A stretch of DNA of 64,000 bases from Burkholderiales bacterium. GTDB taxonomy: Bacteria > Pseudomonadota > Gammaproteobacteria > Burkholderiales > Burkholderiaceae_E. A model generated the notes under the pieces. It worked only from the letters and a program-made list of their open reading frames with translations. It was not told the origin of the DNA and did no database searches. How positions within the stretch are numbered: position 1 is the stretch's first letter; every line of letters begins with the position of its first letter. Position numbers and translations under genes: made by a program. Below, in pieces: positions 3,170 through 39,514 of the stretch. Location: positions 1 to 64,000 of the forward strand of contig CANKWX010000012.1 in assembly GCA_947487165.1 (NCBI GenBank), written 5' to 3'.

Positions 3170-3200
3170 CTGGCAAGTCCTTTCAATGCCGGCCCGCCGG

Positions 3201-4073
3201 TCAGGCGAACTCGAAAAAAGCGTTCGACACCACCGTGCGATCGTTGACGTTCGCCTCGAAGGTGACGCGTCCGGGCCCGTCGTGCCAGGCGGACACCCGC
3301 AGGGCATCGCCCGGAAAGACCGGTGACGAAAACCGCACCCGCAAGGTCCTGAAACGACCCGGATCGCCTGCGCACAGCGCGCCAAGCAGCATCTGGGCGC
3401 AATGCCCGTAGGTGCACAGACCATGCAGGATCGGCGTCTCGAAGCCACCGAAACGGGCAGCCGCAGGCTCGATATGCAGCGGGTTGTAGTCGCCGGAGAG
3501 GCGATAGAGGTGGGCCTGATTGAGTGCAATCAGTGCACTGACCTCGAGATCGGGCGCACGCGCCGGCCGGTCGATCCTGACCGAAGTGGTCTGACCCGAG
3601 CCTTCGAAGGGCGCGATATCGCCAAGCTGCTCGACACCGCGACGAAACGACCCGTTGACCATGCGCACGCAGACATTGCCCTGCGCGTCGGTCACCTGGC
3701 TTTCGGTTTCGACGAAACCGTTGCCCTTGCCGCGAGGGTGCGCGGCAATCAGGCGCGAGCTGACATGAACCGTGCCGTCGAGCGGCAGAGGCCGCAGCAG
3801 CTCGATCTGTCTTTCTGCATCGATGTTAAGCGGCCCGGGCGAGGCCGGGATCAGCGCCAGGTCGATCGGCGCTCCCGCCCCGCCCCAGCGAATCGGGAAG
3901 GTCGGGAACACCGCAAAGCCCGGATCACGCTCGTAGACGAAGCGAAGATCGGTCGCCCCGATTCCGACGGCATAGAGCATGACGTCGCGCTGGTCGTAGG
4001 TGATGGCGACCGGCTCGCCCCAGGGACCCGGGACGCCCCCGGGCAAGGCCGCCTTTGCATCGTAGACCGCCAT
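3201..4073 (-). CDS. MaoC-family (R)-specific enoyl-CoA hydratase, two-domain
   Basis: A 290-residue protein with an N-terminal MaoC-like half and a C-terminal hot-dog domain carrying the hydratase-2 motif (DYNPLHIEPAAARFGGF followed by ILHGLCTYG). The Asp and His of this motif are the catalytic dyad of R-specific 2-enoyl-CoA hydratases. It would hydrate the enoyl-CoA made by the neighbouring dehydrogenases. The ATG at 4073 (MAVYDAKAAL) was chosen because it starts the conserved region and leaves 14 nt from the thiolase stop; an upstream extension would overlap the thiolase. Its length fits two-domain family members such as bile-acid or cholesterol-type enoyl-CoA hydratases. Confidence 0.88.
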   Translation of the reverse strand: MAVYDAKAALPGGVPGPWGEPVAITYDQRDVMLYAVGIGATDLRFVYERDPGFAVFPTFPIRWGGAGAPIDLALIPASPGPLNIDAERQIELLRPLPLDGTVHVSSRLIAAHPRGKGNGFVETESQVTDAQGNVCVRMVNGSFRRGVEQLGDIAPFEGSGQTTSVRIDRPARAPDLEVSALIALNQAHLYRLSGDYNPLHIEPAAARFGGFETPILHGLCTYGHCAQMLLGALCAGDPGRFRTLRVRFSSPVFPGDALRVSAWHDGPGRVTFEANVNDRTVVSNAFFEFA

Positions 4074-20960: not shown

Positions 20961-23747
20961 CTAGAAGTGGTACTTCTCGCTGCGTTGTCGGAACGCCTTC
21001 TCCGACCCCTCCATGATGTCTAGGACCGCGCGAGTGACCCGCTGACGGTCCAAGCCACCGGCCGCACGGCATACCCCCCTGCCTTCGTGCGCGTCAAAGG
21101 CGTACACGAGCTCAGCGTCGGCGTTCACAGGAACGTTGGCGTTGTGAGTCGCAAGTATCAGCTGGCGACCGTTCTTAGCTTCTCGCAGTTGCGGAACGAG
21201 GTCGCTGAAGATGAAGCTCGAGTCCAGCTCATCTTCTGGCTGGTCGACCACTAACGGACCGTCCCCATTCGCGAGAATCAAGCTGAGAAGTGCAGTGTTT
21301 CGCTGCCCCTCGGACAGCGTCTTACCTCCGCCACCGCTCACGGTTCCTGCGACGGAGCCGTCCGACCGGCGGAGCTCAACGTCAACGTAGTCGGCAACAC
21401 GAGTCACCTGAACGCTTTCCCAGAGCACCCCGACATCTGCTGAATTCAGGTAGGTCTTCAGCTCACCCGCAATCGACGCGAATGCTCCGTCTTTCGGGGC
21501 CGTCTCAGGGCTGTTCAGCCAATCCAGGAGGACATTCCAAGGCGACGTGGGCGCGCCTGGCGACTGAAAAGCGGAGTAGACCTGCTTCGCAAGGTCTTCC
21601 CAGTGCCGAGCCAGTCGAGTCCGGCTGTCGCGCGGTGAGATGCGAGCGAAGTGCTCCTTGAAAGAGAGCTCATCACCCATGTAGCGCACTTGCACAGACG
21701 TTGCCACGGTAGACAGCGACTGGCTTGCTTTCTGCCGGAGTGCGAACTGCCGCTGCCAGGTATGAGTCAACTCCTCGCGGAGCTTTGCAGTTTCGGCCAA
21801 CTTGCTCGACAGCTCCTTGAGGCTCGCTTGGTTCCCGTCAAGCTGCCGTTGCTTAGCAGCACGCTCCACCTCCACGTCTCTCAATCGCCCCGCATCAGCG
21901 GGAGACACTCCCTTGGCTTCACAGGCATCGATGAACCGCTGTGCAGCGTGCTCTAGCTCCGCTTGCACGCCAGCTACTCCAGGCGCACTGTCCAAAGCTG
22001 TTCGCACCGCATGTTCATACCGCTCAATCGCCTGAGCGACCTCTGCCTTCAATGCCCCACTTGCGGAAGTCAGTGCATCGGATAGACCACCAAACCAAGC
22101 TGAATGCGGCCAGTCTTTAGACGTCTCAGGTAGTGGCGGGGGCGTCGCGAGGTCATCCAAGGCCCCGTCGAGAGCGGACCGCGTGTTTGCAACAAGTGTG
22201 TCGACCTCCCGAATATAGTCGGCTGCTTCTCCAGCTCTTCGCTGCGCAACTGCGTCTGCCTGAACTTCCTTTCTCGCCTCAAGCTGCCGGGTCAGTTCGG
22301 TAATCTCTTGGGCGACTCTCTTGATGTCTCCCTCAAGGGCTTGGGCTTGACGCGCCAGTGCGAACAAACTTTCAAGCTCTTTTCGCAGCTGACGCTCTCG
22401 GGACTCGAGCTTGTCGAGCTCATCGCCGCAGGCGGCGTCCAGGAGCTCCAGCACTTGTCCTGTGTGGCCAGGCTGACTGAAGCGCGACAACTCGCCCTGA
22501 CTGAAGAACTGAATCTTGAGCCCCGCTAGCGCAACCTGTAGGTCCTGAACATCTCTTCCGTCTAGGACGTGCTGATTGGCTTTCGGCCGCAGTACGACAG
22601 TGTCCTCAACCTCCGGAGCAAGTGAGTACTTGACTCGAACCTCCGCCCCCTCATCGGACAGCGTTCTGCGAATCGCGACAAGCTTCTCTAGGACGTCCTT
22701 ATCGACCTGCTTTTCATAGCCAGGCTGAAGACAGAACCTCAAGTATTCGAGCAGCGTGGACTTGCCACTTCCCCTTCCGCCGATGACACAGTTGAGATTC
22801 GACGAAAGATGAATCTCCTGGTCTGCGAGGAAGCTCGTGCCTCGGACTGAAACGGAAATGATGTGAGGATGCCGCTCGCCGTCAGAAGGCCGTGCATCCT
22901 GCAAGCGCACTCGCGATGCGTGGTCCAAGAAAGCCTGCCGTAGCGCTTCGATAGAAGGGCTCGACATCTTTATCCACGTCGAGCGCCAGCCGATGTAGTT
23001 GTTCGGAAGCTCATCCGAGGAATAAGCCTTGCAGTCTGACGAACTAATGCACGCGATGGGGCGCTCTCGCCTCCACTCTTTGGCGCAGGAGTCATCGGCC
23101 CGGAAGAGCTTCTGAAAGTTGGGGTTCATCTCCCCAACCGGCTTGTTAACCTCTACCGCCAGGAGCTCTGGGTTCAAAAACTCATACTGCTGGAGCCAAT
23201 TGCTGACTTTGTCATTGTCGAAGAGCCCTTCGTCGGACATCAGATGCGGCAGTATCACCAATCCAACAAGGTCGTCTCCTGGCTCGCTCGGAGATTGAAC
23301 ACACCGAAGTATCTCGACAAGGTTGCGCGTCGACTTCTTGAGGACTCCATCCTTCTCCCGTGGCATCGAAACGCCGCAGGTGGTCAACTTGTGGTCCACC
23401 GCATCAAGGTCGGCGTCCGGCTCGAAGATTGCCAGCACATGAACCCCCTTTCCCACGTTCGCTTCGAACTCGAAGCCGGGAAAGATGACAATCGAGTATC
23501 CAAACTCCTTCGAGAGCTTGGATACCGCCTGCCGTAGTTCAGGGATGAAGCTCTTCGAGAGAAAGTTGTGGTCGGTGACCGCGATGACCTCAAGCCCCGC
23601 CGCATAGCAAGCACGAATGTACTTTTCGGCTGCAGCGGCGACCTCTTCGGGAGTCCCTCCGCACTTGGCGCCCTGCCACCGTGCGAAATCCGCCGGGGTC
23701 TGCATCTGAAGGTCGCACTTGTACCAACGCATACCCTGGTAGCTCAC
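20961..23747 (-). CDS. TrlF-like PHP domain plus SMC/ABC-type ATPase
   Basis: A 928-residue fusion protein. Residues 1 to about 270 form a PHP-like phosphoesterase domain (KCDLQMQTPADF, AVTDHNF, ISSSDCKAYSSDE). An ABC ATPase follows, with Walker A GGRGSGKST near 335, a long coiled-coil middle (about 430-690), signature LSEGQRNTALLSLIL near 820, Walker B LVVDQPEDELD and the switch His in ILATHNANV. This matches the TrlF family of AAA/ABC-like ATPases often found near defence genes. The canonical HxH of PHP enzymes is QxQ here. The start is GTG 23747 with GGGAG upstream; ATG 23732 is an alternative. It follows the restriction operon by 117 nt. Confidence 0.85.
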   Translation of the reverse strand: MSYQGMRWYKCDLQMQTPADFARWQGAKCGGTPEEVAAAAEKYIRACYAAGLEVIAVTDHNFLSKSFIPELRQAVSKLSKEFGYSIVIFPGFEFEANVGKGVHVLAIFEPDADLDAVDHKLTTCGVSMPREKDGVLKKSTRNLVEILRCVQSPSEPGDDLVGLVILPHLMSDEGLFDNDKVSNWLQQYEFLNPELLAVEVNKPVGEMNPNFQKLFRADDSCAKEWRRERPIACISSSDCKAYSSDELPNNYIGWRSTWIKMSSPSIEALRQAFLDHASRVRLQDARPSDGERHPHIISVSVRGTSFLADQEIHLSSNLNCVIGGRGSGKSTLLEYLRFCLQPGYEKQVDKDVLEKLVAIRRTLSDEGAEVRVKYSLAPEVEDTVVLRPKANQHVLDGRDVQDLQVALAGLKIQFFSQGELSRFSQPGHTGQVLELLDAACGDELDKLESRERQLRKELESLFALARQAQALEGDIKRVAQEITELTRQLEARKEVQADAVAQRRAGEAADYIREVDTLVANTRSALDGALDDLATPPPLPETSKDWPHSAWFGGLSDALTSASGALKAEVAQAIERYEHAVRTALDSAPGVAGVQAELEHAAQRFIDACEAKGVSPADAGRLRDVEVERAAKQRQLDGNQASLKELSSKLAETAKLREELTHTWQRQFALRQKASQSLSTVATSVQVRYMGDELSFKEHFARISPRDSRTRLARHWEDLAKQVYSAFQSPGAPTSPWNVLLDWLNSPETAPKDGAFASIAGELKTYLNSADVGVLWESVQVTRVADYVDVELRRSDGSVAGTVSGGGGKTLSEGQRNTALLSLILANGDGPLVVDQPEDELDSSFIFSDLVPQLREAKNGRQLILATHNANVPVNADAELVYAFDAHEGRGVCRAAGGLDRQRVTRAVLDIMEGSEKAFRQRSEKYHF

Positions 23748-23864
23748 TGCGACCGTCTCCCGTTGTCCGTGCTGTCGTAGGTCATCGCACGAGTCTATCG
23801 CTGCGCACTACGAACGGGGTTACCAAGTTGGGCGGCCCCGAAGTGTCGAACGTCCTGATGCTGG

Positions 23865-26357
23865 TCACGAGTACCGCAGCCGCCTCGGCTCGAAAAGCCC
23901 GTCATCCACCAAGTCCCCTGAGGCGAGCTTCCATAGCCGAAACGGGCCATCCATCTCTTCCTTGCCGACCATGAACACTCGTCCATAGACCGGGTGGACT
24001 GCGCCGGCCTTCTTCCGTTCGACCTCGAGCAGGTGCGGCCCCTTCAGCTCGGTGAGCGCGGCGCCCTCTCCCTCCTTCCGGCCGGCGACTCCCACCACGA
24101 AGTCCGGGAAGAACCCAACGCCGTCGCTCCAGCCGTAGAGCGCTATCGAATCTGGCTTGCGCACCGGATTGCGGTGCCACCACAGCACCTCGTCGGCGGT
24201 ATCCAGCATGCTGGCGAACTCTCGCTCGGAGTGGTTCAGGTCGGGCGGGAACACCCCGTAGATGTTCCGTGCGGAGGGCTCCAGCGGCAGCTCGCTCTCG
24301 ACCGCATCCCGGATGTGGACCTTCCGGGATTGGACCTGCTCGGCCCGCACGCGCTTGTACGCGTCGCGGATGAGGCGCGGGTTGCGCACGAGCACGAGCT
24401 CCAGTTGCCTAGTCAACTCCTCATCGTCCTTGGGCGGCTCATGGCCTTGAGAGACGAGTGCCTCCTGGAAACGGTCCTTCAGGGCAGTGAGGAGCTCTCG
24501 TCGGTCGACGTCGTCGAACTCGAAGGCGAGCTGGCGGGCTTTCTCCGCGATGGCGACCGGCGAGACGGTCGCCCAGATGTCCCGGTCGGCCAGGCTGCCC
24601 TCGAAGACATCGGTCATACGCTCGGTGACCCGCGAGCGCACCTTGAGCCGGTCGCCGAGCACCCTGGTGAAGTCGATGTGCGAGACCAGCCGCTCTTCGA
24701 AGTCGTCCGGCAGCTCAGGCAGCGCCTCGGTGACCAGTTCCGCGGGCACGTCCTTGCGACGAGGGTAGCGCTTGGGGGCCTGCTTCGCGTCCAGCTCGAA
24801 CGCCTTGGTGAGAGGCGTCGGGTCTCCCTTGGCCGTCGCAAAGAGCGCCTGCGACAAGCCCTTGCCGCTGCCCACGACGTCCGCAAAAAGCGTCGTCTGC
24901 GAGGGCGTGGTCTCCGCGGGAGGCGCCTGAGCAGGCAGTTCCGGCTTCTTGCTCGCGGGAGGCTTGGTGTCATCCGCGGCAGCAGGCAGGAGGGAAAGTG
25001 ACTGCCCAGGGCGGACGACCTGGACCATTGGGCTGTCAGCCACGACGGTGACGACGATGGAGGTGCCTGCTGACGCGAGATGCTCCGGCATGTCGTTGAT
25101 GGCGCTCGCCGCGCCTACCAGCCCTTCCTGGGCCTCGTCGTTGGCGAGGAAGACGTAACCGAAGGAGAGCTCGGGCGGCACCTGCTGCAACCGTCCCTGG
25201 AGCAGCCGGTGGACCCGCATGATGCGGCCGACCACCTGGATACCGAAGCCGATGTCCCGTGCACCGCGCAGTGCGGCCAGCGTGAAGGCCCTCGGAGCAT
25301 CGAAGCCGGTTGCGATGGCCATCTTGAAGAGGATGACCTCGACCGCGGGGTCGTCAGCCAGCGCCGCCAGGTTCGGGTCCGGCTCATCGGCGGTATGCGC
25401 CTTCACCGAGTCCGCGGGGAACTTGAGCTTCTCGACCAGGAACTCGCGGGCGCTCTTCATCGCAGCCCCACCGTTGGGCACCTGCACGAGCATTAGGGGC
25501 GTGAGCCCGACGCCGGCCTGGGCGAGCGTCTTCTTGATGTGGCGGTGCATGGCCGCGCACTCCATCATCGCCACCTCCTCGTAGGCGATGAGCTGCGCGT
25601 CGTCCTGGTTCTTCGCGATGAACCGGGCCGCCTTCACGCTCTTCTTCAGCAGCTGGGCCGCCACGCCCTCGGCTCGCGTCACCGACGCCCACTCGGACGG
25701 CCCGCCAAGCCGGTAGCCGGTCGCGGCTGAGAACTTGCCCGCGTCCTGGTCTCGAGGCGTCGCCGTCATCAGCAGCACGTACTCGGGCGCCAGCACGTCC
25801 TTGAAGAAGCGGCAGGACTCCGGTGCGCGGACGAACCCGTGATGGGCCTCGTCGACGACCACCCCGATACGAAAGCCTTGGTCGCGAGCGACCAGGATGA
25901 CGTCGTCGATGGCCATGCCGGCGTCACCTGACGTGCGCGCCAGGCGCGACTCCTTGCTGCGGGCCGCGACCGTCTGCCAGTTCAGCACGAAGATGCCGCC
26001 CTGGGTCAGCGCATCCGGACGACGGTCCGCTTCGATGTCGAGCCGGGGCAGGCTCGGCGCCTGCTGCATCAGCGCACGTTCGGCCTGCCCGATGATGCCG
26101 GCGAAGGGGGCGAACCAGAACCAGAGAATCTGTTCTTCCGGGGTGAAGCGCGCGAGCAGCTCGCACGCCATCAGCGTCTTGCCGATGCCGGTCGGCGCCT
26201 GGAGCATGACGCAGGCCGACTGCTCCCGGACCTGCTTGAAGTCGTTCGGAGTCGGGTTCTTCCCGAGCTTGTCGTACTCGCTCTTCAGTGCGGTGAACCG
26301 AGCCAGCAGCGCATCGATGTGCTGCTGCTGAAAGGGCATGGGCGGGATGCGGCTCAT
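23865..26357 (-). CDS. Type III-like restriction enzyme subunit (SF2 helicase with PD-(D/E)xK nuclease)
   Basis: An 830-residue protein. Helicase motifs are APTGIGKT at residues 54-61, DEAH at 169-172, LLMTATPRDQ near 205 and QVVGRIMRVHRL near 385. A Pro/Ala/Thr-rich linker (about 450-490) separates these from the C-terminal part, which has GFFPDFVVGV and ALTELKG, the D and ExK elements of a PD-(D/E)xK nuclease. It would translocate on or hydrolyse ATP along DNA and cut unmodified sites with the Mod partner. Its ATG overlaps the Mod stop (ATGA). All key motifs are intact, so the system looks functional. Confidence 0.88.
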   Translation of the reverse strand: MSRIPPMPFQQQHIDALLARFTALKSEYDKLGKNPTPNDFKQVREQSACVMLQAPTGIGKTLMACELLARFTPEEQILWFWFAPFAGIIGQAERALMQQAPSLPRLDIEADRRPDALTQGGIFVLNWQTVAARSKESRLARTSGDAGMAIDDVILVARDQGFRIGVVVDEAHHGFVRAPESCRFFKDVLAPEYVLLMTATPRDQDAGKFSAATGYRLGGPSEWASVTRAEGVAAQLLKKSVKAARFIAKNQDDAQLIAYEEVAMMECAAMHRHIKKTLAQAGVGLTPLMLVQVPNGGAAMKSAREFLVEKLKFPADSVKAHTADEPDPNLAALADDPAVEVILFKMAIATGFDAPRAFTLAALRGARDIGFGIQVVGRIMRVHRLLQGRLQQVPPELSFGYVFLANDEAQEGLVGAASAINDMPEHLASAGTSIVVTVVADSPMVQVVRPGQSLSLLPAAADDTKPPASKKPELPAQAPPAETTPSQTTLFADVVGSGKGLSQALFATAKGDPTPLTKAFELDAKQAPKRYPRRKDVPAELVTEALPELPDDFEERLVSHIDFTRVLGDRLKVRSRVTERMTDVFEGSLADRDIWATVSPVAIAEKARQLAFEFDDVDRRELLTALKDRFQEALVSQGHEPPKDDEELTRQLELVLVRNPRLIRDAYKRVRAEQVQSRKVHIRDAVESELPLEPSARNIYGVFPPDLNHSEREFASMLDTADEVLWWHRNPVRKPDSIALYGWSDGVGFFPDFVVGVAGRKEGEGAALTELKGPHLLEVERKKAGAVHPVYGRVFMVGKEEMDGPFRLWKLASGDLVDDGLFEPRRLRYS

Positions 26358-28030
26358 GCTGCCTCCTCGACGGCATTGTCGTTGTCAACCACACGCGCTT
26401 TGCCTTGGCGGAACGTGCGCCGGAGGTCCTCGGGGACGGCGACTACGGTCAACGGCCGGTCCAGCTCCTCAGCCAGCGCAGTGACGACTGCCGGGGCCCA
26501 CGTGAACACCGCCGCAGGCCCTCGATGTTCCTGAAGAGCCTCGCCCAGCTTCTTCATCGTCGCCGGCTTCGTGTTGGCGCAGTAGAGCAGCATCTGCTCG
26601 TCACAGACCGACTTCGCAACCGGCCCCTCGTACGGAGCAAGCGGGTGGCCAGCCATCAACAGGGCGTGTGACCACACGAGGTCGTTCGTGAGTTGGTGCT
26701 CGAGGCGATGCATTGGCACCCGCACGGCGCGGGCATAGGCGAACGAGCCGCCCAAGGGTGCGACCGCGCCGCCGTCCTTGCCGTTGTAGCCCTCGATGGC
26801 GCGCCGGACGCGCCCGGCACAGACGTCCCGGCACAGGTTCTTGTCGGGGTCTTCTTCGGTTGACTCGCGATTAGAGACGAGAACGAACCGACGGTTGCCT
26901 CCATCGGCCGTGTTCATCTCCAGAACGGCATGCCCCAAGGTGCCAGACCCCGCGAAGAAGTCGAGCACCAGGGCGTCCTTTTCTGGCGCTCCGATGTCCA
27001 GCACACGTCGCATCAGCCGAAGCGGCTTGGGGGTCTCGAATGCCGTTTGCGTGCCAAACAGGGATTGAACTTCTTTGCGGGCTTCGTCGGTATGGCCCAC
27101 CTCGTCGTGCGCCCACCAGGTCCAAGGCACCAAGCCCGACACTTCATCCAGGTAACGAATGAGACCAGGCGCGCTGTCCCCGCGGGCCCCAAAGCTCACT
27201 CGCCCCGCAGCCCGAAGCCGTTCGAACTCTGGTTCGAGGACCGACCAGTGGCGGCCCTCCGGCGGGTACAGCACCTTCCCGGACGGCGTCGTAACGGGGT
27301 ACTGCTGATTCGGCCGCAGCCCCGGCCCGTTCATCGGGACAAGGCGCCAGGGTCCTCGGGGGTCATTGTTCGGGTTTCGGTAGTTCTGCCGAGTTCTCTC
27401 GTCGACAGGCAGCATCCCGCGCCGCAACTTGAACGCGTCGGGGTTCGGCGAGTACACCAAGAGGTACTCGTGGACGTTGCCAATCGCAGAGTTGTTCTCC
27501 CGGGAGTACCGCTTCTGCCAGATGCAGTTCGCGACAAAGCTGTTCTCCCCGAAAACCTGATTCATCAGCAGGCCGAGGTTGAACAGCTCGTTGTCGTCGA
27601 TGGAGATGAAGATGACGCCATCGTCCGCCAGCAGGTCGCGGGCCAAGATGAGCCGCTGGTAGATGAACTCGAGCCACGTCGAGTGTCGAAACCGGTTGGT
27701 GGCGTCGAAGTAGCGGTCGTTGTAGACGAAGTCCCGCCGACCAGTGTTGTATGGCGGGTCGATGTAGATGAGCTGGAACTGGCCAGCCATCGTGGACGTC
27801 AGCAGTCGCAGAGCATCGTAGTTGTCGCCCTCAATGATTAGATTGCCTTGCGGGCCGTCGCCACACGAGAGCTCCGAGTCTAGTTCCAGGCCCACGAAGT
27901 CCCGGTTCAGCGCTTTCTCGGCAGGTATCTCTTCACGTTCCCAAATGAGCCCGTAGTGCGCCTGGGCGTCCCGGCGCCGAAGAATCTCAACCAGGGCCTC
28001 CTTGCTAAGGCTCTCGTAGTCCCGACTCAA
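26354..28030 (-). CDS. Type III-like DNA-adenine methyltransferase (Mod)
   Basis: A 558-residue beta-class methyltransferase. The catalytic motif DPPYNTG is at residues 91-97, with the AdoMet motif DFFAGSGTLGHAVLEMN near residue 360, and FISIDDNELFNL between. The order (catalytic before AdoMet motif) and the intervening target-recognition region are typical of type III Mod and related enzymes. The start is TTG at 28030, with GGGAG six bases upstream, overlapping the preceding small gene's stop (TTGA). It protects host DNA from the restriction subunit encoded next. The recognition sequence cannot be read from the protein. Confidence 0.9.
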   Translation of the reverse strand: MSRDYESLSKEALVEILRRRDAQAHYGLIWEREEIPAEKALNRDFVGLELDSELSCGDGPQGNLIIEGDNYDALRLLTSTMAGQFQLIYIDPPYNTGRRDFVYNDRYFDATNRFRHSTWLEFIYQRLILARDLLADDGVIFISIDDNELFNLGLLMNQVFGENSFVANCIWQKRYSRENNSAIGNVHEYLLVYSPNPDAFKLRRGMLPVDERTRQNYRNPNNDPRGPWRLVPMNGPGLRPNQQYPVTTPSGKVLYPPEGRHWSVLEPEFERLRAAGRVSFGARGDSAPGLIRYLDEVSGLVPWTWWAHDEVGHTDEARKEVQSLFGTQTAFETPKPLRLMRRVLDIGAPEKDALVLDFFAGSGTLGHAVLEMNTADGGNRRFVLVSNRESTEEDPDKNLCRDVCAGRVRRAIEGYNGKDGGAVAPLGGSFAYARAVRVPMHRLEHQLTNDLVWSHALLMAGHPLAPYEGPVAKSVCDEQMLLYCANTKPATMKKLGEALQEHRGPAAVFTWAPAVVTALAEELDRPLTVVAVPEDLRRTFRQGKARVVDNDNAVEEAA

Positions 28031-28233
28031 CGCCTACTCCCTTTGGGCGAGCCTGCGGAAGACGATTCGGGCGACGACGGTGTCACGAGGCCCTTACGGC
28101 GGCAGAAGTCGAGGACTATCCACTCGAGCATGTTTGTCTGCGAGCGCTGCTCCGACTCGGCTGCCAGTTCGAGGCAACGTTTGAACTCCGGAGTAACCCG
28201 GAAACTTACGGAAACGCGCTTCTCAGCCTGCAC
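28027..28233 (-). CDS. Small ribbon-helix-helix-like protein heading the restriction operon
   Basis: A 68-residue protein starting at GTG 28233 with an excellent AGGAGG six bases upstream. The pattern KRVSVSFRVTPEFKRCLELAAESEQ followed by NMLEWIVLDFCRRKG fits a ribbon-helix-helix fold (one beta strand, two helices). Its stop overlaps the Mod start, so the three genes are coupled. A CCGTAT/ATACGG inverted repeat lies just upstream, which suggests that it represses its own operon, as control proteins of restriction systems do (inference). The tail is Ser/Pro-rich. Confidence 0.7.
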   Translation of the reverse strand: MQAEKRVSVSFRVTPEFKRCLELAAESEQRSQTNMLEWIVLDFCRRKGLVTPSSPESSSAGSPKGSRR

Positions 28234-28256
28234 GTGAGGCCTCCTGCTGGTGCGTG

Positions 28257-28279
28257 CCGTATAGCATAACGCGATACGG
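28257..28279 (-). promoter_or_regulatory. Inverted repeat upstream of the restriction operon, putative operator
   Basis: CCGTAT at 28257-28262 and ATACGG at 28274-28279 form a perfect 6-bp dyad with an 11-nt centre, 24 to 46 nt before the GTG of the ribbon-helix-helix gene. The centre contains TATA-like sequence on the minus strand, so the dyad could overlap the promoter. Confidence 0.45.
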
Positions 28280-28398
28280 TTTCGCTGCAGTGGAGAGGCT
28301 TCAGAAAGGAGCCCGGCGGCCCTCGCTCCACCTAGGCGCGTCCGAAAACGAAACAACCCTCTTCCGAGGGGTGCTTTTGCGGACAGGAAGTGCGTCGC

Positions 28399-28614
28399 TC
28401 AGGACGAAAAGGCCTCGTCGTCGAGCTTCTTTCGCTCCAGGAGCATGTCGTCCGCGAATCGGTATGCCTCGCGACCGATGCTTGGGCCAGGCCGCGTGCT
28501 GTGCCCCTTTTCCTTCATGAACATCGCAGCAGCAATGTGCGCTGCGAGCACGTCGCGAGTGCTGGGGGGCAGGTGACCGTTGGGGTCGATTGTGGAGTTG
28601 GAAGTCTTGGTCAT
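28399..28614 (-). CDS. Small hypothetical protein
   Basis: A 71-residue reading frame (MTKTSNSTIDPNGHL ... LERKKLDDEAFSS) with a helical, charged C-terminal half (REAYRFADDMLLERKKLDDEAF). The ribosome site is weak and I recognise no family. It lies 140 nt downstream of the DUF262-HNH gene in the same direction. It could be real but is supported only by composition and position. Confidence 0.4.
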   Translation of the reverse strand: MTKTSNSTIDPNGHLPPSTRDVLAAHIAAAMFMKEKGHSTRPGPSIGREAYRFADDMLLERKKLDDEAFSS

Positions 28615-28755
28615 GTCGAGAATGCTATGGGTGACGTCTGGTGTAGTACTTCGCTTTATTTTCGGCCAAGACGGTGCTTCAGCCCTCGGTCCCGACTCCG
28701 GCGGGAACTCCTGCGTACCGCGCAGGGAAACGCGCTCAGAAGGTTCGCCGCGCTG

Positions 28756-29880
28756 TCACGTCCCACCCTTTCGCCGGTTGCAGCCCTTGCACAGCATCCG
28801 ACAGTTAGACGCAATCGACCGTCCGCCTGCGTGCCAAGGGTCGATGTGGTCGGCTTCCATTTCGTCAAGCTTGAAAATGCGAGTCTTTTCGGGGCAGGCA
28901 CCATCGGCGCAGATGCCGGCTTGCTTGGTGTAGGTCTCGCGCTTTACCTTGTCGGAGAACGCTCGGAGGCTGAGCTGCCTCTCCTGGCCAGTCAGCACGT
29001 AAGCGTAGACGCCCGCTTTCCGGGTGACTTCTTCGTCTTGCATGAGTTCCGCCACCCGCTTCTCGAGTTCAATTGGGTCAAGGTCATCGTCCTTGTGCTT
29101 GTTGTAAAGCGTCCCCCACGGGACTGACTTCATCTCCTTGCGCACAACAGGGAAGGTTGCCTTGACCCAGTTGATGACCCCGGAGAAGTAGTTCCACAGC
29201 TCAACTGCTGTCTTGTCCGACTGGTGCGCCGCCATGTAGCTAGCAGGCTTGTCACCACTAATCCAGCTGAGCGCTGTCTCCAGATACTCTTGTCGGATGG
29301 GCGACCCCGTCAGGTAGTCGGAAGCCATCGCCTGCGCCGGGCAGTTCGGCTTGCTGAAGCGAGTCTTCGCCCATGAGAGCCATGGTCCGGTGTAGACCGC
29401 GTTCAGTAGCTCTTGCTCGGTTAGCCTCTCACCGGCGATGTTGATGGTTCGGAACCACTCCAGTTTCTCGCTCTCCGGTCCTTCGCAGACGTAAACGGTG
29501 AGCTCGTAGTTGAGGATGGCGTCTTTCTGGTCCTGCGTGAGGTTGTGGAAGTACTGCTCGTTGATGGAAAAATCGCTGTTCACGTACTTGCAGATGCTCA
29601 GTGTTCGCTGTTGCCCGTCTAGCACTTCGAACTTCGCCAAAGAGTCGTCTGCGGGCGCGCTCGGGTCCGGGTTGCGAACCCAATACATCACATTGAGCGG
29701 GTAGCCCTTACGAACGGTGTCGATGACCTTATTGCGCTGCTCATCCTTGTAGACGAACTCACGCTGGTAGGCCGGACGGATATTTAGCTGGCCGTCGAAG
29801 CCGACCACACCGGCATCGCCACTGTCGACGTAGCCGCTGGTCAATGCACGGACGGAAACTTGTCGCGGCTGAATCTTCAT
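28756..29880 (-). CDS. DUF262 domain protein with C-terminal HNH nuclease
   Basis: A 374-residue protein. The N-terminal DUF262 (ParB-like) domain has IRPAYQREFVY at residues 34-44 and the signature DGQQR at 88-92, followed by LEWFRTINIAGERLTEQELLNA. The C-terminus is a zinc-type HNH nuclease: ICADGACPEKT, then EADHIDPWHAGGRS and CRMLCKGCNRRKG. This is the layout of GmrSD-like, often modification-dependent, restriction enzymes. Here its start overlaps the stop of an adenine methylase (ATGA at 29877-29880), which suggests a methylation-blocked partner nuclease instead (inference). All HNH residues are present. Confidence 0.88.
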   Translation of the reverse strand: MKIQPRQVSVRALTSGYVDSGDAGVVGFDGQLNIRPAYQREFVYKDEQRNKVIDTVRKGYPLNVMYWVRNPDPSAPADDSLAKFEVLDGQQRTLSICKYVNSDFSINEQYFHNLTQDQKDAILNYELTVYVCEGPESEKLEWFRTINIAGERLTEQELLNAVYTGPWLSWAKTRFSKPNCPAQAMASDYLTGSPIRQEYLETALSWISGDKPASYMAAHQSDKTAVELWNYFSGVINWVKATFPVVRKEMKSVPWGTLYNKHKDDDLDPIELEKRVAELMQDEEVTRKAGVYAYVLTGQERQLSLRAFSDKVKRETYTKQAGICADGACPEKTRIFKLDEMEADHIDPWHAGGRSIASNCRMLCKGCNRRKGGT

Positions 29881-30800
29881 GCCGTTGCCTTTCGCTTGAT
29901 GAAAATGCGCTTGTAGAGCCCGGCTCCATTCAGAACGGGCGCGTCAAAGCGAGAGTGCGGCTTCTTCAGGTGCTCGAGCTTTCCGTCGCCACCCCTGTCG
30001 GTCGTCCAAATCACCTCGAATTGCTCGGGGTTGTACTTGTCCAGGAACGTAATCGGCACACCCATCACCCCCTCATAGTCGGCGGGGATGTCAGCTACCT
30101 TGCTCACTTCGATGGCTTCATAGTTGTCGTAGCGGGGGTAGCTGGACTCGTTGCCCGAATACATCCGGAAAACGGCGAGTTCTTCGTTTCGACGGTTGTG
30201 AAGCAGGTTGGTGTACCAGCAGATGTTCCCGAACAACTTCACGGTTCCGTCTGGCTGTCGGAACTCCTTCGGCTTGGTCAAGCCGAGCCACAGCGCGTTT
30301 GCCTGGATGAGTCGGAAAGTCTCCTTGTAGGTAATGGCGTTGCTGTTGCCGATGATGAGGAAAGACTTCCCGTGCTCGACCAACTGCGCCACGTACTCCC
30401 TAAAGAGCGAGAATGGTGGGTTGGTCACCACGACGTCAGCCTCGTTCAGCAGACTGACGCACTCCTCGCTGCGAAAGTCGCCATCCCCTAGGAGGGGCGT
30501 CTCGATGAGTCGGTCCTGCCCGAAGTACTCGAGCTTGTATGAGGACCTGCCGGGCGAGTAGTGAGTGGCGATGACCTTCTTCAAGCCCAAGCGCTCGAAG
30601 TTCAACGTGAAGAACTTCCAGAACGCGGACCACTGCGGGTCATCACAATTGCAGAAGACGACCTTACCTTTCAGGTGTGCTCGGTAGTGCCGCAGCTCCT
30701 TCTCGACGTCAGTGAGCTGGGTGTAGAACTCGTCGTTCTTCGCTGCTCGTGCAGCATGCAGCGAGCCATTGCTCGCGGAAGTGGTGGTGGCGCGCGCCAA
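29877..30800 (-). CDS. EcoRI-family adenine-specific DNA methyltransferase
   Basis: A 307-residue protein. KNDEFYTQLTDVEKELRHY and KGKVVFCNCDDP match the N-terminus of M.EcoRI-type enzymes, and the catalytic motif NPPF is at residues 127-130, followed by FLIIGNSNAITYKE and LFGNICWYTNL. It transfers methyl groups to adenine-N6. The start is TTG at 30800 with GGAG six bases upstream. It is directly coupled to the DUF262-HNH gene and no EcoRI-like endonuclease is present. GAATTC does occur in this element (near 21,440 and 33,013), so the target need not be GAATTC. Confidence 0.88.
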   Translation of the reverse strand: MARATTTSASNGSLHAARAAKNDEFYTQLTDVEKELRHYRAHLKGKVVFCNCDDPQWSAFWKFFTLNFERLGLKKVIATHYSPGRSSYKLEYFGQDRLIETPLLGDGDFRSEECVSLLNEADVVVTNPPFSLFREYVAQLVEHGKSFLIIGNSNAITYKETFRLIQANALWLGLTKPKEFRQPDGTVKLFGNICWYTNLLHNRRNEELAVFRMYSGNESSYPRYDNYEAIEVSKVADIPADYEGVMGVPITFLDKYNPEQFEVIWTTDRGGDGKLEHLKKPHSRFDAPVLNGAGLYKRIFIKRKATA

Positions 30801-30803
30801 GGA

Positions 30804-30872
30804 CTGCTCCGATAGAGCAGCACCCGTAACGAGCGGTTGTGTCCTTGCTCACAACGTGAGCTCTGTTACGGG
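30804..30872 (-). promoter_or_regulatory. Nested inverted repeats upstream of the methylase-nuclease operon
   Basis: Three perfect dyads lie just before the methylase start: CTGCTC/GAGCAG (30804-30820), CCCGTAAC/GTTACGGG (30823-30830 and 30865-30872), and inside it GTTGTG/CACAAC (30836-30841 and 30850-30855). They could be operators or a structured leader. The half-site CCGTA is shared with the dyad upstream of the type III operon. The whole stretch 30,801-31,203 has no convincing gene. Confidence 0.5.
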
Positions 30873-31132
30873 TTAGTGTCCTGGCGGGTGCTGATGGGGT
30901 TGGTCAGAGGCCTCAGCTGGAGGCCGGTTCAAGGCGTGTAGCCAGCCCGTTTATGCCTTTCGCTTCAGGCTCAGGTGCGCTCGGACCGGGGGTCACCCGT
31001 CCGAGTTGCTTGGCCAGAAATCGGTGGGCACCGGGCGAAGAGTGTCGTGCTGTAGAGGCGCGGGCTGCCACGGCACGCTTCTTGACGATGCGCGAGTGCA
31101 CCGGGGTCCGCCTTACCCACGGATTGGAGAAC

Positions 31133-31162
31133 TTGAGAGCCTTGACACAAGAGCCGTATCAT
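31133..31162 (+). promoter_or_regulatory. Sigma-70-like promoter for the small gene at 31204
   Basis: TTGAGA at 31133-31138 and TATCAT at 31157-31162 are separated by 18 nt, each one base from consensus. Transcription would start near 31169, 35 nt before the ATG. Confidence 0.45.
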
Positions 31163-31203
31163 CAGAATGTCGAGCGCGACGCCACGTCAGCCCCCTCTCC
31201 GAG

Positions 31204-31515
31204 ATGGACGACTTTCCAAACGGCTGCCTTGTCTCAGCCGCTGCGGCCGAACAGCTCGACGAACTTGAGTGGAATGCGGCTGACCTATTCGCCCGGCATT
31301 TGTCTGGCGACTGGGGCGAAGTGTCGAACGAAGTACGCCGGATGAACGAGGACCCAGCCAAATGGCGCAGACTCAGTTGCTACTGGCACGACCGAAAGGC
31401 CGGGCTGGGGCTGGTGGTCGTCGAAGAGGACGACCAGCTGACACTCCTCACGACGACCGAGCTCGCAGCCATCGGTAACCCTCAATCCCCGAAGCCTGCC
31501 TCGGGACTGCACTAG
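31204..31515 (+). CDS. Small conserved hypothetical protein (GDWGE-motif family)
   Basis: A 103-residue protein beginning MDDFPNGCLVSAAAAEQLDEL. The central LFARHLSGDWGEVSNEVRRMNED and the terminal VVEEDDQLTLLTTTEL match a family of small proteins that is common on plasmids and genomic islands and often loosely labelled as restriction-related; no function is established. The ATG at 31204 was chosen because the family homology begins there. The 3' end overlaps a convergent gene by 68 nt. The basis is family recognition from memory. Confidence 0.65.
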   Translation: MDDFPNGCLVSAAAAEQLDELEWNAADLFARHLSGDWGEVSNEVRRMNEDPAKWRRLSCYWHDRKAGLGLVVVEEDDQLTLLTTTELAAIGNPQSPKPASGLH

Positions 31516-32035
31516 CGCGCCCGGGTAGTCCGGGTGCTTTCGTGTCAGTTTCGGGCCGTTTCGACCCTTCTCTCGGGGTCGCTAGTCCGCAAGTCTTTGA
31601 AGTGCGTACCGCGCCGACCTCAGGGCCGAATAAGCTTCGTTGTCGGTCGGCGATGGCCCGACATCGAAGCCGCGGGCGTAGACGCGCCGCAGTTGCTCGA
31701 CCGACTTGCGGGTACAAAGATTCGACGCGGAGTAGCAGGGCGCCGGCCCAAATGGTGTCGGCATCGACATGCCCGCGATGAAGCTCCACCGCGATGCCTT
31801 CCCGTCGAAGAGCGAGTAGCGTTGCGCTGAGAACCACCTGATAACTGAGCGGCACGACCGCTGCAGGCCCAGGTGCGTCCATGCGTTCGGCGTGGAGCAA
31901 GCACGACGGCGCTTTCTCGCAGTGCCCGTCGACGAAGGAGCGCGAGTCTTGCGTCGACGCGTCGACCTCCACGAAGCGCCGTCGACCTTCGAGCGAAGAG
32001 AGGAACGCCCGGAGCTGGCTTGCATCCGATTTCAT
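31448..32035 (-). CDS. Hypothetical protein, third gene of coupled cassette
   Basis: A 195-residue frame starting MKSDASQLRAFLSSLEGRRRFVEVD. I recognise no family. The first 110 residues look folded (LSYQVVLSATLLALRREGIAVELHRG); the rest is Arg-rich and may be poorly structured. The ATG overlaps the stop of the upstream gene (ATGA at 32032-32035), which is the main evidence that it is translated. The C-terminal 22 codons overlap the convergent gene at 31204-31515. Confidence 0.5.
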   Translation of the reverse strand: MKSDASQLRAFLSSLEGRRRFVEVDASTQDSRSFVDGHCEKAPSCLLHAERMDAPGPAAVVPLSYQVVLSATLLALRREGIAVELHRGHVDADTIWAGALLLRVESLYPQVGRATAARLRPRLRCRAIADRQRSLFGPEVGAVRTSKTCGLATPREGSKRPETDTKAPGLPGRASAVPRQASGIEGYRWLRARSS

Positions 32036-34467: not shown

Positions 34468-35640
34468 TCAGACGTCGACGACGTCGGCGGCCACCCGAGC
34501 GGCAGGCTCCCCCGCAGCGGAGGTCGCCGAGCCGGTGCTCGCCATGGTCCCGGCGGGCCTTGTCTTTCGCCACCGAACGACGCCTTGCCCAATCGTCCAG
34601 CCCTCGTCGATGACCTGAAGGTCGACGAGGTCGTTCAACGACCGGCGCAGCATCCGGGCAAAGGATTCAGGCTCCGCATCCGAGCCGCAGAGCTCCTGCA
34701 GCGTCGGCAGCGGCATTGGAATCAGTCGGCTCTGGCTCTCGATGAATCCGTAGAGCCAAGAAGATAGACCTTCCGGGACGACACGTCGGCGCTGGAAGTC
34801 CACCCAGACGTTCATCGAGGTCTTGAAGAGCGCCACGATGTCAGCGTCCAGGGCCACGCTCCACTGGCCGCGGCTGGGGAAGTGAAAGCGCTGGCAGAGC
34901 TGCACGCTGACGTCGGCGAACTGCACGAGGCCCCGCTGCAGCCTGACGATGTGGTCCTTCAGCAGCATGCGCGACTTACCGTCGTAGCGCTGGAACACGG
35001 CCCGACACAGCTCCTCTGCGGAGAAGTGGACGGTGCAGCCCGCCTGCGCGTCGCGGGTCAAGTTCAGCAGCGCCATGAACACCAGGCCGTCCGACTGCCG
35101 GAGCTCAGGGCCGATGTACTTCAACACTAGGCCCTGGCGTTCGCTCTGCATCTCGATGGTCACCGAGTCCGAGCGAGCCGTGCTGCGTGACGAGACCCGG
35201 AACAGCGGGGACACGAAGAAGGCTCGGGGGCTGATGAGCTGGCTGCTCCCGTGTTGCGGGATGAACTTGCTCTCAAGCTCTTTCTCGATGCGCTCCTCTT
35301 CGAGCAGCGAATCCTGGACCACGCGGAAGAGGCGCCGGCGCTCGGGGGTGTCGCTGCGCTCTTGGCGGGACTCCTGCGTAGCCGACTCTCGGCCCTTCCG
35401 GAGCGCCTTCTTCTGCTCGAGCAGGGTCGAACGCGTCGGCAGTACGCCAGAGGCGTGACCGACCACGAACGACAACGGCGCGTATTCGCCTAGCGCCGAC
35501 GACTCTGCTGATTTCTCCAAGACCTGCTCCGACACCTGGGGTTGCGGTGAGGGAGTCAAGCGAACCGCGCTTATACCTGTGTGCAAGGGGCTCGCCCTAC
35601 CGATAAGTCGCGTCGCTATAGAACCCGCAGCCCTCCTCAA
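34468..35640 (-). CDS. trfA: TrfA-family plasmid replication initiator
   Basis: Up to 390 residues. The C-terminal two thirds match TrfA: VLKYIGPELRQSDGLVFMALLNLTRD, then SRMLLKDHIVRLQRGLVQF, LSSWLYGFIESQSRLIPMPLPTLQELCGS and FARMLRRSLNDLVDL, which form the tandem winged helices. An extended charged N-terminus (LLEQKKALRKGRESATQESRQER) precedes them. It would bind the adjacent iterons and load the helicase. The N-terminal start is uncertain: TTG 35640 gives the longest form, GTG 35535 a shorter one. It is divergent from the gene at 35675. Ser/Ala-rich C-terminal residues are not part of the usual fold. Confidence 0.82.
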   Translation of the reverse strand: MRRAAGSIATRLIGRASPLHTGISAVRLTPSPQPQVSEQVLEKSAESSALGEYAPLSFVVGHASGVLPTRSTLLEQKKALRKGRESATQESRQERSDTPERRRLFRVVQDSLLEEERIEKELESKFIPQHGSSQLISPRAFFVSPLFRVSSRSTARSDSVTIEMQSERQGLVLKYIGPELRQSDGLVFMALLNLTRDAQAGCTVHFSAEELCRAVFQRYDGKSRMLLKDHIVRLQRGLVQFADVSVQLCQRFHFPSRGQWSVALDADIVALFKTSMNVWVDFQRRRVVPEGLSSWLYGFIESQSRLIPMPLPTLQELCGSDAEPESFARMLRRSLNDLVDLQVIDEGWTIGQGVVRWRKTRPAGTMASTGSATSAAGEPAARVAADVVDV

Positions 35641-37381: not shown

Positions 37382-39367
37382 TCACATCCGTTCCAGCGAC
37401 TCCTTCAGCACCTCCGCCATCTTCGCGGCCGCGTCCCCGTGGGTCACGCGGCCGTAGTACTTCTCGACCGTGGACATCCGGTCGTTCAGGAGCATCGCCG
37501 CGGTCTTGAAGTCGTTGCCGCTGGCTTTGAGCAGCGCGGTCGCGACCAGGTGCCGGAACGCATGCGGGCCGATACCCGGACAGCGCCACAGGTAGCGCTT
37601 CGTGTTGCTGAAGACGCGCTCCGCCAACTCCTCCCAGGGCCGATGCGGCTGCGGCTCGCCCTTCGGCGAAGGTAGGAACACGTACTCCGTCGGGCTGGTA
37701 ATCAGCATCGGCCGAAAGTCCTTCAGGTACCGCTCGAGGTCCTTCCACGCCATCTGCTGGACGGGCGAGTCGTACTTCTGGTCGCGAGCCGCGCCACGGG
37801 CGTTCTTGAAGTGCTTGCTCTCGATGCGAATCCACCAGGAGCTGTCCGCCCGCTGGTAGAGCTCGCCCGTGTTGTCCGCCTTCCACGTCAGCTGCGCCAC
37901 GTTCTTCCGGCGAAGCGGGTTCGAGATGAGGAGCTTCAGCAGCGCAATGTCTCGGGCCCAGATGGCCTCGGGCATGCCGCCGCCCACGGGCCGGTCCGCC
38001 TTCATCCGGGCGAACATGTCGACGACGGCGTCCAGCGGCCGCTCCATGTCCAGGATGTGCTGAATCGGCGCGAACGGGTCTCGGGAGACAACCCGCTCCT
38101 TGTCGTAGTGCCGTCGCAGGTCGTTCGACATCTCGAAGGCGCTGTGGCACAGGTCGTCCCACGGCTGGGCCCGATACGCCTGCGGGAGCGTCTCCTGAAA
38201 CTGCTCCTGCTGTCGGAGGTACCCCTCGCCGGGACGGGTAAGGCTGGCGACGAGGGCGAAGTACGTGAACATGAATCCCGACACATCCCCATCCGCCCTC
38301 TCCTGCCGCCACTTCACGTAGCGCTCCATGTGGTCCGGCACAGCCAGCCAGGCGAGCGTCTGGACGTCGTCCTCAGTCAGTCCGACACCGCCTCGTGCCG
38401 GGTCCATGCACAGCCATCCCAGGTACGCCGAGACCTGAGACCAGGCGACGTGTGCCGTCGGCACCTCCTGGCCCCTCAGAAGCCGCCACCACTGACCCGG
38501 CCGACCCGGCCGCATGTTGCGGGTGGCAATGGTCCACTGGCCCCGCCGCGTGCGCTTAAGCCGACCGGGGCGCACCGCAGTCTTGTAGTCCATGAACGCC
38601 GCCCACTGGGTGCGAATCGGCGACGTCTCCTTCGGGTGCAGGACGTAGAAGTCGGAGCTCGTCCGCCGGAGCCTATCGCGATACGGAAGGCGCTGAGCCT
38701 GCCCGACCTGCTGCTCACCCGCTGGCGTCTTCGCTTGCAGGAGGTCCACCAGGGCCCCGCGCTTCAGCCCGAAGAAGTACTCCAGCCGGTGAATCGCGGG
38801 AAGCAGCGTGCGCCTCTTCGGCATCTTCCCCTTCGTCCAGCCATAGAGGGCGTCAAAGGGCACCCCGGCTTGCTCGGCGACTCGGCGCACCGGGTGCTTT
38901 CCCATGGCGCTACGCAGCGCAGCGGTGAAGGGCTGAACGCTATCCGTAGATGCGGCGTACTCGCAGTCCCAGGCGAGGACCGCACGCCTCCAGTGGCGCA
39001 CGGCGGAGGTGTAGGTGATGACGACCGACTTCGAGCGGCCCTCTGCGGCCATGGACTGCCGGAACGCCTCGAGCTTCTCCTCGAAGTCCGCGCGCATCTC
39101 CTGGCCAACGACATCCGACTCTTCGAGTCGCAGGAACGCGAGGAACGCTCTCAACGAGGTCTTGCGGTTGATGAGCGTCTGCTTCGACGAGCTCTCGTAG
39201 GCTGCCCGCTTCTCCTCTCGTTCGATGAGAGCGGTGTATGTGCGTTTGGTGGGTTCCAAGCCCCGTCTCCGGACACGCCGGGACGCGATTTCGCTGTCTT
39301 GCGAAGCTTTCAAAGACAACGGCTCTAGAACACCTCGAAGAGCGTAGCCACTTGTAATGTCACTCAT
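37382..39367 (-). CDS. Large tyrosine recombinase/integrase
   Basis: A 661-residue protein. The catalytic domain is at the C-terminus: box I Arg in LLISNPLRRKNVAQLTW near residue 500, HxxR in GPHAFRHLVATALL near 605 and the nucleophilic Tyr in MSTVEKYYGRVTHG near 640. The N-terminal 250 residues contain a core-binding-like helical part (LINRKTSLRAFLAFLRLEE) and a helix-turn-helix-like segment (VRRVAEQAGVPFDALYGWTKGKMPKR). It is much longer than phage integrases. ATG 39367 is chosen because GAGGGA lies just upstream. It probably integrates or resolves the element; no attachment site was recognised. Confidence 0.85.
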   Translation of the reverse strand: MSDITSGYALRGVLEPLSLKASQDSEIASRRVRRRGLEPTKRTYTALIEREEKRAAYESSSKQTLINRKTSLRAFLAFLRLEESDVVGQEMRADFEEKLEAFRQSMAAEGRSKSVVITYTSAVRHWRRAVLAWDCEYAASTDSVQPFTAALRSAMGKHPVRRVAEQAGVPFDALYGWTKGKMPKRRTLLPAIHRLEYFFGLKRGALVDLLQAKTPAGEQQVGQAQRLPYRDRLRRTSSDFYVLHPKETSPIRTQWAAFMDYKTAVRPGRLKRTRRGQWTIATRNMRPGRPGQWWRLLRGQEVPTAHVAWSQVSAYLGWLCMDPARGGVGLTEDDVQTLAWLAVPDHMERYVKWRQERADGDVSGFMFTYFALVASLTRPGEGYLRQQEQFQETLPQAYRAQPWDDLCHSAFEMSNDLRRHYDKERVVSRDPFAPIQHILDMERPLDAVVDMFARMKADRPVGGGMPEAIWARDIALLKLLISNPLRRKNVAQLTWKADNTGELYQRADSSWWIRIESKHFKNARGAARDQKYDSPVQQMAWKDLERYLKDFRPMLITSPTEYVFLPSPKGEPQPHRPWEELAERVFSNTKRYLWRCPGIGPHAFRHLVATALLKASGNDFKTAAMLLNDRMSTVEKYYGRVTHGDAAAKMAEVLKESLERM

Positions 39368-39514
39368 TTGTTCCCTCACCATTCGGGGCCACCGAAGTTC
39401 AAGGGAGGGATGAGGACAAGTAGCGCTGTGTTGAGGCAGAGCGGGGTCGCGACCTGGCGAAAATCACTTCGCTGACGGTCTAGTCACCCTGTTTATGTGC
39501 GTGAGAGGCTGCTC

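Follow-up and report, generated by a model that had tools for sequence, protein, structure and literature searches.

The methylase-nuclease pair and its protein families

The window analysed here is a stretch of 64,000 nucleotides from a Burkholderiales genome (assembly GCA_947487165.1, contig CANKWX010000012.1, positions 1 to 64,000). Its reverse strand carries two overlapping genes, called M and R below. M encodes an EcoRI-type adenine-specific DNA methyltransferase, and R encodes a protein with an N-terminal DUF262 domain and a C-terminal HNH nuclease domain. How regularly the two genes occur together, and in which of them the sequence specificity of the pair sits, is the subject of this work. 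An earlier sequence-only reading of this DNA had reported an M.EcoRI-family methylase whose stop overlaps the nuclease start, with intact motifs in both proteins, and both observations hold. The features of the pair are as follows.

29877-30800, reverse strand: M, EcoRI-type adenine-specific DNA methyltransferase, 307 amino acids, TTG start (Pfam PF13651, PADLOC)
28756-29880, reverse strand: R, DUF262 (GmrSD_N, ParB/Srx-like NTPase) plus C-terminal HNH nuclease, 374 amino acids, ATG start
29877-29880, reverse strand: ATGA, overlap of the M stop and the R start, 4 nt
Residues 127-130 of M, reverse strand: NPPF motif (from the sequence)
30222-30296, reverse strand: variable segment 1 of M, approximately residues 169-193, the proposed target-recognition segment (TRD1, for target-recognition domain; from the alignment)
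29922-30029, reverse strand: variable segment 2 of M (the tail), approximately residues 258-293, the second proposed recognition segment (from the alignment)
29392-29781, reverse strand: GmrSD_N/DUF262 match in R, residues 34-163 (Pfam E 1.9e-20)
29605-29619, reverse strand: DGQQR of R, residues 88-92 (from the sequence)
28765-28875, reverse strand: HNH domain of R, residues 336-372 (Pfam HNH E 2.4e-9)

Both family assignments are strong. M matches Pfam EcoRI_methylase PF13651 (E 5.5e-112, 374.9 bits, curated cut-off 26.4) and, over most of the protein, PADLOC MTase_II PDLC03297 (E 5.4e-109). Residues 1-371 of R align to positions 1-369 of the 372 in PADLOC REase_II PDLC03418 (E 9.9e-126, 417.8 bits); the second-best PADLOC model for R is NsnA (E 5.5e-21). 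No NCBIfam model scored above its cut-off for either protein. The only HNH family recovered in R is PF01844, with HNH_5 below cut-off, no DUF1524 (PF07510) match at E <=0.001 and no ResIII or DEAD match in the Pfam scan. The motif residues D344-H345...N359 of R are intact, and the same positions are nearly invariant across 149 distinct aligned nucleases (D344 in 145/149, H345 in 146/149, N359 in 145/149), as is DGQQR (149/149).

The AlphaFold2 models of R and M have mean predicted local distance difference test scores (pLDDT) of 88.4 and 89.0, respectively. The N-terminal domain of the R model aligns with BrxU 7p9m_B (Z 8.4, root-mean-square deviation (rmsd) 4.5, 129 residues) and with SspE 6jiv_A (Z 7.2, rmsd 4.3, 134 residues), and its HNH part with 4h9d_C (Z 6.8, rmsd 2.7, 67 residues). 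Taken as a whole chain, R aligns with BrxU 7p9k_A at Z 8.7 but with an rmsd of 12.6, and its middle helical part (approximately residues 155-300) is hardly covered by the structural alignments obtained. The better structural matches of the M model are mostly methyltransferases. Searched by sequence, solved structures gave no credible match for M and partial ones for R, such as HNH 4h9d and BrxU 7p9k. R thus resembles the Type IV nucleases GmrSD and BrxU in having an N-terminal DUF262 domain with DGQQR and a C-terminal His-Me/HNH nuclease. It differs from them in size (374 amino acids versus 580 residues in the BrxU chain), in its HNH family (PF01844, not DUF1524) and in having a methylase partner in all testable relatives. 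In GmrSD, BrxU and SspE, the DUF262 domain binds or hydrolyses nucleoside triphosphates (NTPs) and responds to DNA modification, according to the available parts of PMC10952713 and PMC12707154.

Conserved linkage of M and R

The sequence-only reading took the two genes for a coupled and possibly unusual restriction-modification pair, to be checked by a survey of gene neighbourhoods. We scanned genome contigs with a nuclease alignment (A1), using the best 80 of at least 449 candidates, and viral contigs, using the best 80 of 188; the tally therefore covers the closest relatives, more distant candidates lying outside it. M was found near R in 158/158 testable loci, which represent about 151 different nucleases, as not all loci are distinct. 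The coupling is thus supported, and the pairing extends well beyond this genome, contrary to the outcome that the sequence-only reading had named as refuting it. Among the best 80 genome loci, M lies upstream of R on the same strand in 77, within 300 nt in 70 and at 621-1557 nt in 7, where mostly another gene lies between. M is directly downstream in one further locus (L084), and the contig ends in another (L062, set aside). The last, L120 from an Altimarinus-like metagenome-assembled genome (MAG), was judged by hand; here M and R are both split by in-frame stops, with the M pieces upstream, as expected if TGA encodes an amino acid in that MAG. This gives 79/79 testable genome loci. The best 80 viral loci likewise give 79/79 testable, with M upstream in 75 (74 within 300 nt), directly downstream in 4 (L178, L192-L194) and one contig-edge locus (L158) set aside. 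Where M precedes R, the two genes lie <=24 nt apart, overlaps included, in 129/152 relatives, and the commonest spacing is -4. Where the full-length nuclease occurs on plasmids or phages, M was present at all 8 loci opened (L033-L039, L041). Overall, M and R almost certainly form one functional unit.

The pair is, however, no rarity. Hosts include Pseudomonadota, Bacillota, Actinomycetota, Bacteroidota, Patescibacteria and one archaeal MAG, besides viral contigs, and PADLOC lists both proteins as Type II restriction-modification. Among 398 genomes evenly sampled from the window's phylum, 106 match the PADLOC R model at E <=0.001; a strong R occurs in only 4 of these (E <1e-80, the next being 3.9e-16), and the same 4 alone exceed the Pfam cut-off for M.

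Some loci carry additional genes between M and R. On an Enterococcus dispar plasmid (L035:61-4699) an optrA-like resistance gene sits between them, and extra genes also occur in L053, L057 and L077 (approximately 2993-3947), L080:1368-2691, L105:752-1598 and L061:3363-3981. L053, L057 and L077 are three Paludibacteraceae MAGs with three different TRD1 types and an inserted, putatively Fic-like protein at the same position.

The linkage is asymmetric. Of 80 viral M loci, R is present in 47, while 30 lack R on both strands despite sufficient sequence downstream, 2 lie at a contig edge, and 1 (L229) retains a short N-terminal piece of R beside M. The 30 loci lacking R encode 27 different Ms; 3 of these loci have <1200 nt upstream of M, and one (L284) shares its contig with R.EcoRI (L288). 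In mycobacteriophage Marchy, gp71 (L040:5065-5217, annotated as hypothetical), a 50-residue product encoded directly after M, matches R residues 1-47 (E 3e-7), so that Marchy M and gp71 are apparently a decayed pair. No intact R without M was found among the loci examined, and viral contigs often carry M without R. Judged from these gene contents, the asymmetry would be what a nuclease harming unprotected DNA predicts; a nuclease like SspE, dependent on its modification partner, would be expected to produce much the same distribution.

Variable segments of M beside a nearly constant R

We compared the variability of the two proteins over 149 distinct pairs (156 before identical pairs were collapsed). 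R has a mean column entropy of 0.79-1.72 bits per 20-column block, with gaps of <=3% per block and no hypervariable stretch. In M, entropy reaches 2.2-3.4 bits in blocks at TRD1 and at the tail, where insertions and deletions also occur. Distances between nucleases follow those between M cores (rho 0.58) and hardly those between TRD1 segments (rho 0.14; partial 0.07 given the core) or tails (rho 0.12), and TRD1 and tail vary independently of each other (rho 0.02). With 4 pairs dropped whose M is cut at the contig end (L051, L063, L102, L106), the remaining 145 fall into 36 TRD1 types, 59 tail types and 112 combinations. The nucleases accompanying one single TRD1 type are 43-91% identical, and this type is combined with 18 different tails; the TRD1 type of the window is common to L131, L141, L178 and L195. 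For nucleases >=85% identical (27 comparisons), both types changed in 17 comparisons, both were kept in 6, the tail alone changed in 3 and TRD1 alone in 1.

As a control, we used EcoRI-type methylases that stand beside R.EcoRI (8 systems, L287-L294; 28 comparisons; R.EcoRI distances 0.08-0.39). Left out of it were an Acinetobacter locus (L295; an annotated DNA methyltransferase upstream of R, the EcoRI type not established), a Helicobacter phage (L285; short R and M in two pieces), a half-length match in Paracoccus, and near-duplicates. The control methylases belong to the same family as the window's M, and their representative from an E. coli plasmid (L287) is approximately 45% identical to it. 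Their partner differs, since the window's R has a DUF262-HNH architecture and neither Pfam nor PADLOC links it to R.EcoRI, and so does the behaviour of their variable segments, which are free in the DUF262-linked systems but conserved in the R.EcoRI-linked ones. In the control, TRD1 distances are 0.07-0.38 and tail distances 0.05-0.32, against 0.11-0.39 for the core, so that the segments are about as conserved as the core or more so. DUF262-linked pairs with R and core distances <=0.39 exceed the largest TRD1 or tail distance of the control in 4485/4519 comparisons. As these comparisons are not independent, disjoint pairs were counted as well. There are 29 such pairs with R >=80% identical. 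Counting as a change any distance above the largest in the control, which is itself within the threshold by construction, we found TRD1 or the tail altered in 23 of them and TRD1 in 20. Free segment exchange thus appears tied to the partner nuclease, not to the methylase family.

The closest cases show the exchange at the level of DNA. Nucleases differing by 3 residues (L071/L134), 4 residues (L053/L057) and 11 residues (L099/L105) stand beside different TRD1 types. Compared 60 bases at a time, L099 and L105 show 87-100% identity across most of their common stretch, 37-73% in TRD1, then 98-100%, 53-77% in the tail, and again 87-100% in R and the gene that separates it from M. For L053 and L057 the identity is 40-50% in TRD1, 45-78% in the rest of M and 93-100% from where M ends until shortly before R ends. 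L071 and L134 have identical tails, with 75-90% identity in most of M's 5' portion, 33-58% in TRD1 and 92-100% beyond. Two tandem Ms accompany one R in Variovorax (L033) and in one viral contig (L169 = L255), with a core identity of 74-82% and a TRD1 identity of 25-36% between the two copies. L099, a Rickettsiales MAG, has a TRD1 and tail close to those of an R.EcoRI-linked methylase, yet beside a DUF262 nuclease.

Six DUF262-linked Ms (L099, L109, L145, L168, L037, L095) have a TRD1 61-74% like that of an R.EcoRI-linked methylase, and these EcoRI-like segments may predict recognition of GAATTC or a related site.

Taken together, these comparisons suggest that R carries no sequence specificity of its own, as it seems, and that specificity very probably resides only in M. 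Several observations weigh against this and against the reading proposed below. The control is small, 3/8 of its systems are from Enterobacteriaceae, and one of its Rs was read over 194 residues. The closest examples (L053/L057, L071/L134, L099/L105) stem from MAGs and one viral contig, and no isolate-level switch of TRD was found among the plasmid DNA matches listed, where nine Enterococcus faecium plasmids are identical over the pair. Both segments were kept in 6/29 disjoint close pairs. Mean R distance is slightly smaller within a TRD1 type (0.378 versus 0.404, p 0.0005) and within a tail type (0.375 versus 0.404, p 0.0005), an association that shared ancestry may explain. M has a third variable block at alignment columns 80-118 (2.0-2.4 bits). 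That the variable segments set specificity is itself something we infer from the family of M and the EcoRI control. Finally, a Staphylococcus phage record (L042:3001-3709) has a broken C-terminal R in pieces and no M within approximately 3 kb; it is an R without M, though a remnant.

A loop at approximately M alignment columns 90-112 (strict pattern) occurs in 58/143 R-linked Ms, 3/31 without intact R and 0/8 R.EcoRI-linked Ms. It may be dockerin/EF-hand-like. As an element docking R it was rejected, being absent from the window's M and the Variovorax M and confounded by ancestry; it is a lead only, and its absence from the window's M is a further point against direction of R by M.

Proposed mechanism, surroundings and significance

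Overall, we lean towards a two-gene restriction-modification system with specificity only in M, in which R would have no target-recognition domain of its own and would be directed by M. M would recognise its site through the two exchangeable segments and methylate an adenine in it. At an unmethylated site, R, as a GmrSD/BrxU-like NTPase-HNH protein, would be recruited or licensed by M, most simply as an M-R complex, a physical association that we slightly favour. The NTPase state of R would then release the HNH nuclease, and R would cut or nick there; such cleavage could serve in phage defence. Self DNA, being methylated, would be spared, and it is likely that methylation protects. The sequence-only reading had left a choice between a methylation-blocked nuclease and a two-part defence of opposite logic. 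Methylation-blocking fits best, in a form that had not been foreseen, with specificity only in M, and the opposite logic is weakened.

The pair probably works by a Type I- or Type III-like logic, not by that of Type IIP or Type IV. Type I and Type III systems can move recognition segments because modification and restriction share the segment. Type I S genes and Type III M genes change specificity by such TRD movement, as the available part of PMC3983042 describes. A Type IIP nuclease, according to what is available of PMC4081073, reads its site alone, by a mechanism unlike that of its methylase; hence, if M alone acquired a new specificity, the host would lose its protection. The pair evolves like Type I and Type III systems, and we therefore propose that M sets the site and directs R there. 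It shares with Type III (Mod/Res) systems the two genes and an exchangeable recognition segment in the methylase, and the segment exchange indirectly places specificity in the methylase, as in Type III. It differs from them in that R is an NTPase-HNH protein without a helicase-domain (ResIII/DEAD) match.

The main rival is an opposite logic like that of SspE, in which R reads N6-methyladenine generically, the host methylation made by M switches the NTPase state of R, and R attacks unmodified DNA. R would then need no sequence specificity, any TRD would serve, and a nearly unchanged R under changing TRDs would fit equally well. The N-terminal domain of R aligns with SspE 6jiv_A, and its DUF262 relatives GmrSD, BrxU and SspE respond to DNA modifications (PMC10952713 and PMC12707154, in the parts available). 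In the SspABCD-SspE phosphorothioate system, as far as the sources available describe it, SspE is likewise a DUF262-type NTPase nuclease working with a host DNA modification. That no intact R was seen without M among the loci examined fails to discriminate between these readings, because SspE reportedly causes growth arrest when its modification genes are absent (PMC12707154, available part). We nevertheless consider this logic unlikely. The partner of R is an adenine methylase, and R.EcoRI, beside the same M family, works by methylation-blocking (PMC4081073, available part). The adjacent genes scanned comprise the EcoRI-type M, a Type III Mod/Res and TrlF, with no Ssp genes and hence no sspABCD linkage, and none of them explains how R would spare self DNA.

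An ordinary Type IIP system, in which R recognises the site of M by itself and is blocked by methylation as in EcoRI, would agree with the PADLOC names REase_II and MTase_II, the gene overlap and the family of M. It is improbable given nucleases 3-11 residues apart beside Ms with unrelated TRD1, an R without hypervariable stretch and an R.EcoRI control that behaves otherwise. The change of TRD1 or tail in 23/29 disjoint close pairs is indirect, evolutionary evidence that R does not recognise the site independently with matched specificity. Marginally less probable still is that M acts like an antitoxin, restraining a non-specific nuclease R by binding or regulation with no site-specific restriction. 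The absence of an intact R without M (158/158 testable) and the near indifference of R to the TRD would fit, but the kept catalytic motif of M, the segment exchange and the frequent viral M without R would be left unexplained. Two independent defence genes, a modification-dependent Type IV nuclease and an orphan methylase, are suggested by the homology of DUF262-HNH proteins to GmrSD but are highly improbable given the pairing in 158/158 testable loci and the gap of <=24 nt in 129/152 with M upstream, and the same pairing rejects chance neighbours.

Around the pair we found the following features.

20961-23747, reverse strand: TrlF-family ATPase (NF045780, E 3.5e-149)
23865-26357, reverse strand: Type III-like Res (weak PADLOC matches only)
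26354-28030, reverse strand: Type III methylase (Mod), downstream of the pair and in the same direction
30803-30821 (approximate), reverse strand: second hairpin, covering a GGAG that precedes the TTG start codon of M by 6 nt (from folding)
30818-30893, no strand assigned: nested inverted repeats upstream of M, with arms 30822-30830/30865-30873 and 30818-30826/30885-30893
34468-35640, reverse strand: TrfA-like replication protein, upstream of the pair
37382-39382, reverse strand: protein with a tyrosine-recombinase match just under the Pfam cut-off, upstream of the pair

The Type III Res and Mod genes overlap by 4 nt and form, together with TrlF (20961-28030, reverse strand), a second defence cluster adjoining the pair. 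A 109-residue open reading frame (28027-28356, reverse strand) overlaps the Mod start by 4 nt with its 3' end; it has no Pfam, PADLOC or NCBIfam match at E <=0.001 and gives the impression, no firmer than that, of a ribbon-helix-helix protein. An integrated plasmid-like element is suggested by the TrfA-like protein and the tyrosine-recombinase match, and the whole region looks like a defence island on such an element.

The nested dyads that the sequence-only reading had noted upstream of the pair do exist. Both have 9-nt arms with 100% complementarity, and the fold energy upstream of M is -38.5 kcal/mol versus -25.0 (standard deviation 3.1) in shuffles (z -4.4, 0/200 as good). A repeat family or a known RNA was rejected as their identity, since the stretch 30801-30960 is single-copy in the genome and Rfam gave no match within 28000-31600 up to E 0.1. 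The dyads may control the pair, as that reading had supposed, and the hairpin over GGAG could possibly act in translational control.

The gene pair itself is known to databases. PADLOC catalogues it as Type II restriction-modification, and plasmid annotations in the style of RefSeq place an 'adenine-specific methyltransferase EcoRI family protein' beside a 'DUF262 domain-containing protein'. Searches of the open PMC library for the pair, judged on titles, abstract beginnings and text passages (REBASE, most subscription papers and bioRxiv beyond PMC being outside this scope), gave no description of it or of its segment exchange. Machnicka et al. 2015 (PMC4619093) report that restriction-modification domains, Type I above all, are enriched near GmrSD homologues; EcoRI-type methylases are not mentioned in the part of that paper covered here. 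New here is an R that seems to lack its own specificity beside an M whose segments are exchanged. It is an even call whether the pair represents a further type of restriction-modification organisation, with two genes and NTP dependence, in which R is a compact GmrSD-like NTPase-HNH effector without specificity, wholly programmed by an EcoRI-type M whose two recognition segments can be exchanged independently, new specificities arising via short cassette swaps in M.

The usual view of DUF262-nuclease proteins is that they are modification-dependent (Type IV) enzymes, and the present pair has been classed as Type II. If R takes its target from M, a widespread family has been placed in the wrong mechanistic class, and DUF262 proteins can serve methylation-blocked restriction. 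One small nuclease might then be re-aimed by exchanging two short methylase segments, and how DUF262 NTPase-nucleases are switched would become directly testable with two genes.

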